DNA from: Aminobacterium colombiense DSM 12261
Lineage (GTDB): Bacteria; Synergistota; Synergistia; Synergistales; Aminobacteriaceae
NCBI RefSeq assembly: GCF_000025885.1
Contig: NC_014011.1
Coordinates: forward strand, 1,116,001-1,180,000
DNA length: 64,000 bases
Direction: 5' to 3'
Position 1 is the first letter of the stretch. Each line of letters begins with the position of its first letter. The notes beneath the pieces are model-generated. The model saw nothing but the letters and a program-made list of their open reading frames with translations, did not search any database and was not told the origin of the DNA. Position numbers and translations under genes: made by a program. Positions 9,724-54,207 of the stretch are shown here, piece after piece.

Positions 9724-10333
9724 GATTTTCTAAAGCCTCGTACACTCTATCCAAAAACTGTTGCCGGCTATCTTTGGCAGACAGGCCTGTCTCCAATTCC
9801 CTGGGGTAGATGGCCTCGCCGAAAGTCACTTGGATGCGGTTCGGCCGTACAAAACTCGCTCCGGGAGGCATGGACTCGAAGCTCCCTTTAATAAAGGCAG
9901 GGATAACTGGCGCACCGCTCTTCATGGCGATTAACGCTACCCCTCCTTGCAAGGGCTGAAGTTTGCCATTAAGGGATCTGGCTCCTTCTGGAAAAAGAAG
10001 CACATTTTCTCCTTTTTCCAATAAGTCCAAAAAGGCTTTCAGGGCTGCTCCTGCACTTTGCAGATCCTGTTTCTTTACAGGAATGGCCCCCAGTGTCCGT
10101 ATTAGCAGACTCATCCCCAAGGTTGAAAAAAGTTCTGATTTGGCCAGATATCGCAAGCGTCTTGGAAATAAAGCCCCTATTATGATTGGGTCAAGGTTGC
10201 TGCAATGGTTAGCCACTACAATTACAGGATCTTCTTTGGGCAAACTCGCGAGCCAGCGAACAGAAAGACGATTATAAAGCTTAAGAACAATAAAGCAGAA
10301 TATTTTTGTCAGTGTATAAAATAAGTGCCTCAT
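9707..10333 (-). CDS. plsC: 1-acyl-sn-glycerol-3-phosphate acyltransferase (PlsC)
   Basis: 208 residues. It transfers an acyl chain to lysophosphatidic acid to form phosphatidic acid at the inner membrane. The N-terminus is hydrophobic (LTKIFCFIVLKLY). The catalytic HX4D motif is NHCSNLDP, and the second block FPEGARS and the proline-rich block APVIPAFI are present. It overlaps the cmk stop as ATGA, which implies translational coupling. A general lysophospholipid acyltransferase is an alternative. Confidence 0.92.
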   Translation of the reverse strand: MRHLFYTLTKIFCFIVLKLYNRLSVRWLASLPKEDPVIVVANHCSNLDPIIIGALFPRRLRYLAKSELFSTLGMSLLIRTLGAIPVKKQDLQSAGAALKAFLDLLEKGENVLLFPEGARSLNGKLQPLQGGVALIAMKSGAPVIPAFIKGSFESMPPGASFVRPNRIQVTFGEAIYPRELETGLSAKDSRQQFLDRVYEALENLEKSD

Positions 10334-21838: not shown

Positions 21839-22132
21839 TTACCCCCCTGCAAAAACGTTATTTGATCCTATAGCAACGGAAGATCCACACGCTATAGGAT
21901 CTCCAACTCTTCCGGCTTCTTTGCCATTTATAAACACAGACGAACTACCAGACGCCAACACAGACGCATGGCACTCTGGAATATCAGGGCAACAATGCTC
22001 AGCCCAAGCATCGCCTTGTCTATGCCATGCTTTGCCATTAACAAAAACATTAGGAGATCCTTCAACCGAAGGCCGAGATGGCCATCAGCCATGGCCGGTA
22101 CAAACATCTCCTAACCTAGTTGCAGCAGGCAC
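21839..22132 (-). CDS. PAAR spike-tip protein with in-frame TGA at codon 16: candidate selenoprotein
   Basis: 97 residues if the TGA is read. The start is GTG with AAGGAGG seven bases upstream. The product begins MPAATRLGDVCTGHG, then TGA, then WPSRPSVEGSPNVFVNG. It continues with HRQGDAW, AEHCCPDIPECH, SVFINGKEAGRVGDP, ACGSSVAIGS and NNVFAGG. These are the repeated motifs of the PAAR family, which caps the membrane-piercing spike of contractile tails and binds a metal ion. As I recall the family, the residue after GHG is Cys, so TGA stands where Sec would replace Cys. The rest of the frame is open and has no decay. It lies between spike protein V and gpU with 12-base and 6-base gaps, the expected place. 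An ordinary nonsense mutation is the alternative; the hairpin just after the TGA and host selA/selB favour selenocysteine. Confidence 0.82.
22059..22087 (-). promoter_or_regulatory. SECIS-like hairpin directly after the in-frame TGA
   Basis: The TGA is 22087-22085. Twelve bases later CCUUC (22072-22068) and GAAGG (22063-22059) form a perfect 5-bp stem closed by GGUU. The loop starts 17 bases after the TGA. In E. coli fdhF the GGUCU loop of the SECIS starts 18 bases after its UGA, and SelB contacts the loop G and U. Pairing below this stem is weak, and I cannot assign a bulged U. Confidence 0.6.
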
Positions 22133-52836: not shown

Positions 52837-53964
52837 TCAACTTAACTCTTCCAACCAGTCCCCCCACCACTGCATCATCTCGCGACGCTGATCCAAATAC
52901 TCGGCGTGGTTGTACGCTGCCCGCACCGCATTCCGTTCTATATGGGCTAACTGGCGCTCAATTACATCAGATGGCCAGCCATTTTCATTTAAAATCGTAC
53001 TGGCCATTCCCCTGAATCCATGCGGCGTTATATCTTCGTTTTCAAACCCCATTGTTCTGAGGGCAATTCTTACCGTATTTTCACTCATGCAACGCCCATC
53101 GTTGCGAGCGGAAGGGAATAACCACTTCTGGTGGCCTGTAAATTGCTTGAGGCTTTCTATAGTTTCAATGCACTGACTGCAAAGAGGAACAATGTGCGGA
53201 CGTTTCATTTTCATCTTTTCCCCAGGGATTCTCCATTCGCTTTTATCCCAGTCTATTTCTGACCATTCCGCTGATCTTACCTCACCAGGGCGACAAAAGG
53301 TGTAAATTGAAAAGAAGAGCGCATGACGCACCACAATGCCACTGTACGCTTTCATACCTTGAATTAGGGCTCTTATACCTTCTTTGTCAGTTATCGTTGC
53401 ATGGTGGCGTACTGGGGCCTGTTTTAGCGCACCAGTAAGAGCTGAGGTGAGATCATTTTCGGCTCGACCTGTTGCAATAGCGTAACGAAAGACCTGCCCA
53501 ATTATTTGACGTACTCTGTGGGCCGTCTCAATTATTCCTGTTTCTTCGATGGATCGGCAAACGGAAAGTATTTTTGCAGAGGAAATATCCGATATGGAGA
53601 GATTACCCAAGGAAGGCCGTATAAATTTATTCAATCGCAACCGTATAACGCGGGCATACCCGGGAGCAAGCCGCCCATCAACCCTGTTTTCGAGCCATTC
53701 ATCTATTACAGTGTTGAAAGAATCTTCTGAAGAGGGGGTAAAGGAGGTTCGTAACTCAATATTTCTTAGACGGGCCTCACGTGCTGAAGTATCAGGGAAA
53801 CTGCCAAGAGATCTTCTTCTCTCTTTTCCATTCTCCCAAATGCGAGAAATCCAATATTTTTTCCCGCTTGGGCGGATTTCAAGAATCAGCCCATTGCCAT
53901 CAGAGATAGTATAAATCTTCTCTCTCGGCTTTGCCTGCCTGCATTGAAGCTCTGTTAATGCCAT
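52837..53964 (-). CDS. int: Prophage tyrosine integrase (P4 type)
   Basis: 375 residues from an ATG with GAGGTG six bases upstream. The N-terminal DUF4102-type domain has TISDGNGLILEIRPSGKKYW. Catalytic residues are Arg in TFCRPGEVRSAEW, HxxR in TPHGFRGM and Tyr in YNHAEYLDQRR. It lies beside attR, with arm-type motifs just upstream, and would direct integration into tRNA-Ile2. Confidence 0.95.
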   Translation of the reverse strand: MALTELQCRQAKPREKIYTISDGNGLILEIRPSGKKYWISRIWENGKERRRSLGSFPDTSAREARLRNIELRTSFTPSSEDSFNTVIDEWLENRVDGRLAPGYARVIRLRLNKFIRPSLGNLSISDISSAKILSVCRSIEETGIIETAHRVRQIIGQVFRYAIATGRAENDLTSALTGALKQAPVRHHATITDKEGIRALIQGMKAYSGIVVRHALFFSIYTFCRPGEVRSAEWSEIDWDKSEWRIPGEKMKMKRPHIVPLCSQCIETIESLKQFTGHQKWLFPSARNDGRCMSENTVRIALRTMGFENEDITPHGFRGMASTILNENGWPSDVIERQLAHIERNAVRAAYNHAEYLDQRREMMQWWGDWLEELS

Positions 53965-53977
53965 TTTGGTCACCTCA

Positions 53978-54017
53978 CCGTATAACAAAACTACGTTTTA
54001 TACGGTTCATTATACGG
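53978..54017. promoter_or_regulatory. Integrase arm-type motifs (right)
   Basis: TTATACGG at 53998-54005 and 54010-54017 (12-bp period, as at the left end) and an inverted copy at 53978-53985, all just upstream of int. They may also let the integrase control its own promoter. Confidence 0.7.
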
Positions 54018-54069
54018 TATTGATAAGAATAGATATAGGTTTATCGTATTATGAGAAGGTGCCAGAAAC

Positions 54070-54102
54070 AAGAAGAACCCCGTATTTTACGGGGTTCTTC
54101 TT
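54070..54102 (-). terminator. Phage-borne terminator after tRNA-Ile2
   Basis: A perfect 15-bp stem with a 3-base loop (AAGAAGAACCCCGTA / TACGGGGTTCTTCTT), 28 bases beyond the tRNA 3' end. The T-tract is weak (TTGTTTC). It separates the tRNA transcript from int. Confidence 0.7.
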
Positions 54103-54130
54103 CTCTATGAATACTTGATACTAATAGTCT

Positions 54131-54153
54131 TGGTGGGCCTACCTGGACTCGAA
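54131..54153. repeat. Right attachment site (attR core) inside the tRNA gene
   Basis: Identical to 15055-15077. It covers the CCA end, acceptor strand and part of the T-arm of tRNA-Ile2, so the tRNA stays whole after integration. Confidence 0.92.
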
Positions 54154-54207
54154 CCAGGAACCTTCCGGTTATGAGCCGGTGGCTCTAGCCACTTGAGCTA
54201 TAGGCCC
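54131..54207 (-). tRNA. tRNA-Ile2 (anticodon CAT, C34 modified to lysidine)
   Basis: The acceptor stem GGGCCTA pairs with TAGGCCC, with encoded CCA. The anticodon arm reads CCGGC-TCATAAC-CGG-type with anticodon CAT. C4-G69 and C5-G68 pairs are those used by TilS, so this is isoleucine rather than elongator methionine. tRNA-Met remains a weaker option. Confidence 0.88.

Follow-up and report, generated by a model that had tools for sequence, protein, structure and literature searches.

Does the in-frame TGA in the PAAR gene of an Aminobacterium colombiense DSM 12261 prophage encode selenocysteine (Sec), and, if so, what would selenium do at the tip of a phage tail spike? The gene, whose product is expected to sharpen the tip of the cell-puncturing spike, lies in a stretch of 64,000 nucleotides (contig NC_014011.1, positions 1,116,001 to 1,180,000), hereafter the window, to which all coordinates below refer. 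The original prediction, made from the letters of the window, held that a clean PAAR frame is broken by a single UGA which the host reads as Sec.

A prophage spike-tip gene interrupted by one TGA

The first part of this prediction is confirmed. The 97-codon PAAR frame, on the minus strand and preceded by a ribosome-binding site, is open throughout except for TGA at codon 16 (Table 1). With this codon read as Cys, the product scores 69.8 bits against the Pfam PAAR_motif profile PF05488 (cut-off 27) and also matches PHROG 281. Its score against NF033420, the NCBIfam equivalog profile for type VI secretion system (T6SS) PAAR proteins, is 86.9 bits; because this is below the cut-off of 124, we regard the protein as a phage PAAR and not as the T6SS equivalog. 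No selenoprotein PAAR was matched among the NCBIfam profiles. An AF2 model in which Cys replaces Sec (pLDDT 97.5) has the conical PAAR fold, with a TM-score of 0.91 to T4 gp5.4. Four PAAR tips of contractile phages and T6SS, namely T4 gp5.4, P1 UpfC, V. cholerae VCA0105 and E. coli c1882, belong to the same family, PF05488, and the predicted fold of the window PAAR aligns to such tips with TM-scores of 0.86–0.92. The window PAAR also shares with such tips the His3Cys metal-site residues and a gene position beside the spike gene.

Table 1. Features of the prophage PAAR locus and of the host selenocysteine genes in the window
Feature	Start	End	Strand	Remarks
PAAR spike-tip gene	21839	22132	-	GTG start (22132), 97 codons plus TAA (21839), TGA at codon 16
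In-frame TGA, codon 16, proposed Sec codon	22085	22087	-	context CTGHG-TGA-WPSRP
Ribosome-binding site GGAGGTG	22138	22144	-	precedes PAAR GTG start
bSECIS-like hairpin CCUUC-GGUU-GAAGG	22059	22072	-	apical loop begins 17 nt past UGA, G in first loop positions
His14, predicted metal ligand	22091	22093	-	near-invariant column
His46, predicted metal ligand	21995	21997	-	near-invariant column
Cys47-Cys48	21989	21994	-	covariation; Cys48 proposed partner of Sec16, Cys47 of Cys54
Cys54 (Sec in some relatives), proposed partner of Cys47	21971	21973	-	covariation
His55, predicted metal ligand	21968	21970	-	near-invariant column
Cys82, predicted metal ligand	21887	21889	-	near-invariant column
gpU-like tail protein	21443	21832	-	PF06995
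Baseplate assembly protein V / spike, capped by PAAR	22145	22597	-	TIGR01644, 68.1 bits
Baseplate hub gpD	22597	23631	-	PF05954
SelB, Sec-specific elongation factor (host)	56660	58600	-	TIGR00475, 362 bits
SelA, Sec synthase (host)	58593	60026	-	TIGR00474, 573 bits
YedF selenium-metabolism protein (host)	60210	60812	+	TIGR03527, 183 bits

In the tail module the PAAR gene sits between the genes for the spike (baseplate assembly protein V) and gpU, and its neighbourhood also contains a gp25-like wedge gene and gpJ. The prophage has genes for terminase, portal, capsid, sheath, tape measure, hub, baseplate and tail fibre, and the frames of its tail and head module other than PAAR are all open. A tyrosine integrase gene (52837–54207) adjoins a tRNA-Met gene, a site that probably marks the attachment end of the prophage; no direct repeats of at least 25 bp were found between positions 10000 and 56000. 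The A. colombiense genome is a single contig of 1,980,592 bp, finished for the type strain with 85x 454 plus Illumina coverage (PMC3035294), which makes a base-call error at the TGA unlikely. The TGA is also retained in a second genome (L010/L139), although six differences are found downstream of it.

TGA recurs at three Cys columns of the PAAR family

Relatives were collected by a protein search of viral contigs and 188 Synergistota genomes, the matches being read codon by codon, and the set was enlarged by scanning viral and genome collections for patterns and by protein searches of two other phyla. In total, 21 distinct phage or prophage PAAR genes contain an in-frame TGA. They come from at least three bacterial phyla, comprising three families of Synergistota, a Bacillota MAG, a Desulfobacterota-type phylum and metagenomic phages. 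Ten of these genes have TGA at column 16, ten at column 48 and four at column 54, and three genes carry two such codons (L143 at 16 and 54; L173 and L249 at 48 and 54). Placement of Sec at column 16, as originally predicted, is supported, with the same codon recurring in other Synergistota families, in the Bacillota MAG and in viral contigs; however, columns 48 and 54 are used as well.

Across the 21 genes TGA is confined to these three Cys columns, with the sole exception of a third TGA at Arg75 in L249 (G913:C23); the genes around L249 are fragmented, and it therefore looks like a decayed prophage. The genome that contains L249 also holds a second, all-Cys PAAR gene (L232). No internal TAA or TAG was found in the homologue set, pattern scans for TGA at Cys11 or Cys47 returned no PAAR, and looser patterns (GHx-TGA) added no further members. 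The expectation that homologues would have Cys after GHG was borne out: in 102 distinct homologues, nearly all of them collected without searching for TGA, column 16 is Cys in 85 and TGA in 5. Columns H14, H46, H55 and C82 are conserved in 101–102 of the 102, and TGA was never seen at any of them among the homologues.

The homologue sets collected without a TGA pattern contain 13 in-frame stops. Of these, 12 lie at columns 16, 48 or 54, columns that supply 13.6% of the codons lying a single substitution away from TGA (binomial p about 4e-10, with the rows partly related and one of them, L226, reached via the pattern match L198). Downstream of the TGA, purifying selection acts on the sequence, with dN/dS of about 0–0.32 in every computable pair. 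The relatives' PAAR genes have spike or tail genes as neighbours, apart from those of L143, L066 and L072, whose neighbours were not recognised as tail genes. L143, whose PAAR gene (776–1063) has TGA at Cys columns 16 and 54, is a viral contig of 275 kb, and the ORFs adjoining this gene all end in TAA. On the tree we count 7 changes to Sec at column 16, 4 at column 48 and 3 at column 54, a rough tally of independent gains because a tree built on 97 columns is poorly resolved.

Cys and proposed Sec columns vary as two pairs beside the predicted metal site

H14, H46, H55 and C82 align with the metal site of solved PAAR structures, in which three His and one Cys hold the tip zinc (PMC10715212). 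The Sec columns lie outside this set and covary in two pairs. Among 111 distinct domains, columns 47 and 54 both hold Cys or Sec in 66 and neither does in 45, with no domain having one alone; columns 16 and 48 are both occupied in 99 and both empty in 8, and the 4 discordant domains have Cys at 17 in place of 16. No coupling was found between other pairs of Cys columns in the same domains. The two pairs are lost independently of each other: 60 domains have both, 39 only 16–48, 6 only 47–54, and 6 neither. Wherever the partner of a Sec can be read it is Cys, for Sec16 with Cys48 in 10/10, for Sec48 with Cys16 in 9/9 and for Sec54 with Cys47 in 4/4; Sec–Sec pairs are absent, as would be expected from the counts anyway. 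These pair statistics take no account of kinship. For 47/54 the tree offers five supported independent contrasts, every one concordant (the best tree, which lacks support, gives 15); the two for 16/48 are too few.

In the AF2 model, strands 42–47 and 54–59 are of equal length; paired as a hairpin, they would set residue 47 opposite 54 and His46 opposite His55. Since the Cys columns covary as 16–48 and 47–54 and Sec always faces Cys, we infer that two disulfides flank the metal site and that one of their atoms has repeatedly been replaced by selenium. Formation of paired bridges by the Cys/Sec columns at the spike tip is, on this pattern, fairly likely. A single four-Cys metal site is disfavoured by the independent loss of the pairs. 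Francisella IglG (DUF4280) resembles the window PAAR as a Cys-rich PAAR-like tip and binds iron or zinc; unlike the window PAAR, it contains no Sec, and its four Cys are proposed as metal ligands (PMC5014421).

Could Sec instead serve as a ligand, binding the tip metal or a second metal site through its selenolate, rather than as one half of a selenylsulfide? Solved PAARs do hold their zinc by His and Cys, a Cys outside the main set can replace a His ligand in the EAEC protein (PMC10715212), and columns 16, 48 and 54 sit only one or two residues from ligand histidines. Yet the canonical ligand Cys82 is never Sec, and two independent chalcogen pairs suit two bridges better than one four-ligand site, so that we consider this reading unlikely. 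The expectation that Sec would lie near the metal site therefore stands as far as its place beside the ligands is concerned, whereas the covariation points to Sec–Cys bridges beside the site rather than to Sec as a ligand.

A redox-active Sec16 that attacks disulfides of the target envelope, or acts as a switch opening the tip on contact, appears less probable still. A redox role is presumed for most known selenoproteins (PMC13188914), and Sec/Cys pairs are characteristic of redox motifs; however, the PAAR protein has no enzymatic domain, its Sec shifts among three positions within a structural cone, and close relatives manage without the pairs, in D16/N48 and S16/S48 forms.

Host machinery and a downstream hairpin support decoding as Sec

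As originally noted, the window encodes SelA and SelB, and a YedF gene lies close by (Table 1); the host tRNA-Sec (73 bits) is located in the genome outside the window. The host genes for the glycine-reductase proteins GrdA and GrdB contain one in-frame TGA each, which together with SelA, SelB and tRNA-Sec indicates that the host itself uses Sec. All eight genomes that carry a TGA-containing PAAR gene have tRNA-Sec. Among 40 Synergistota genomes with a PAAR match, TGA occurs in 5 of the 21 with tRNA-Sec and in none of the 19 without it (one-sided p 0.031).

We compared the sequence downstream of the TGA with a model of the bacterial SECIS element (bSECIS) that allows a loop of 3–9 nt, a stem of 4–16 bp and a spacing of 16–37 nt, with G in the first two loop bases and an MFE of at most -7.5 (PMC13188914). 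The window PAAR gene shares with bacterial selenoprotein genes a hairpin with G in its loop at 16–37 nt downstream. This hairpin fits the rules for loop, stem, G and spacing, but its energy is modest, -4.6 kcal/mol against the limit of -7.5, a value reached at 12 of 23 scored TGA sites. A different hairpin, overlapping the UGA, is preferred in the minimum-energy fold of the region. A hairpin with a stem of 5 bp or more, a loop that begins 17–18 nt past the TGA and G in the first two bases of that loop is present in 7 of 8 genes with TGA at column 16 and in 2 of 76 with Cys there (p 6e-8). When these proteins are recoded at random with synonymous codons, seven such hairpins seldom arise (p 6e-6); both p values are somewhat optimistic because the position rule was set after the hairpins had been seen. 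Hairpin energies also differ between TGA and Cys genes, at column 16 (p 5e-5), column 48 (p 3e-4) and column 54 (p 1e-3). The signal is a pooled one, as most single sites were not significant in synonymous tests (p 0.26 for the window hairpin). Stem covariation among the column-16 hairpins (six sequences) was not above the shuffle control. L143 has no model SECIS hairpin after its first TGA, at column 16. In L173 and L249 one hairpin lies 17–18 nt past the second TGA and 29–30 nt past the first; being at SECIS distance from both, it might serve both codons.

Column specificity, host machinery and the SECIS-like hairpin together argue for the second part of the original prediction, and UGA16 of the prophage PAAR gene is very probably decoded as Sec. 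If a near-cognate or suppressor tRNA for Trp or Cys read the UGA, or if TGA were reassigned in these phages, no selenium would be involved. Four carriers (L143, L072, L275 and L278) have no TGA stop among their long ORFs, as such a reading would allow, but TGA is an ordinary stop for neighbouring genes in most carrier contigs, it falls on Cys columns and never on Trp columns, and it is associated with both tRNA-Sec and the hairpin, which leaves this explanation very improbable overall, though less clearly so for reassignment in those four. It is hardly credible that the TGA arose by nonsense mutation as the prophage gene decayed, or by a sequencing error: L249 shows that decayed copies exist, but independent genomes repeatedly have TGA at the same columns, which refutes pseudogene or error as a general explanation, and the finished, deep-coverage genome, the purifying selection downstream and the intact tail module speak against it here.

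A proposed selenylsulfide staple at the puncturing tip

The best explanation as a whole, a selenoprotein PAAR tip with paired Sec–Cys bridges, we regard as likely from comparative sequence evidence. Host SelB and tRNA-Sec would decode UGA16 as Sec, guided by the short downstream hairpin. The tip of this PAAR subfamily would carry up to two chalcogen pairs, 16–48 and 47–54, beside the His3Cys site, and in anaerobic hosts that use Sec, one residue of a pair would repeatedly have become Sec, giving U16–C48 in the window PAAR and C16–U48 or C47–U54 elsewhere; proteins with two Sec would carry one in each pair. The most likely role of such a bridge would be that of a selenylsulfide staple, closed in the reducing anaerobic cytoplasm and stiffening the puncturing tip. 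Selenylsulfides resist reduction better than disulfides do, a property that would suit a spike put together inside a strict anaerobe, where the cytoplasm is reducing. The benefit of Sec for redox behaviour and stiffness at the tip is speculative. We lean, with less assurance than for the bridges themselves, towards the broader proposal that phages of Sec-using anaerobes have repeatedly turned one half of either of two spike-tip disulfides into Sec, yielding non-enzymatic, mechanical selenylsulfide staples that keep the tip closed in reducing cytoplasm and tying infectivity to host selenium. Were the staple role correct, phage infection in strict anaerobes would depend on host selenium.

Like bacterial selenoproteins that use SelB and bSECIS, the window PAAR has its UGA aligned with Cys and a Sec-using host; unlike the known ones, it is a phage virion protein and has no redox-enzyme fold. 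Aligned PAAR chains in the PDB, unlike the window PAAR, lack the Cys pairs 16/48 and 47/54, and none is a selenoprotein. The original remark that no selenoprotein is known among phage PAAR proteins agrees with a 2026 inventory of 119 prokaryotic selenoprotein families and subfamilies (PMC13188914), which makes no mention of phage, PAAR, tail, spike, virus or PF05488. The literature that we searched likewise contained no PAAR or phage selenoprotein, with a mention in the new-selenoprotein papers of Haft and co-workers being possible. Poxvirus glutathione peroxidase is a precedent for viral use of host Sec decoding (PMC8310308), but it is an enzyme, relies on a eukaryotic SECIS and is not part of a virion puncturing device. 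If our reading is true, the PAAR tip would be, within the literature searched, the first selenoprotein among PAARs and the first in a phage virion, and one of few apparently structural uses of Sec.

Automated selenoprotein finders appear to have missed the family: in Aminobacterium sp. MB27-C1, a probable carrier, deep-Sep lists 13 selenoprotein genes that were already known and none that is new. Tip proteins containing TGA are liable to be misannotated as truncated. The natural series of Cys–Cys, Sec–Cys, Cys–Sec and no pair lets one ask what Sec buys in the bridge. In L095, L099, L109, L113, L123 and other Synergistota PAARs the 16/48 Cys pair is replaced by Asp/Asn, and in L070, L131, L133 and L227 the first Cys is shifted by one residue.
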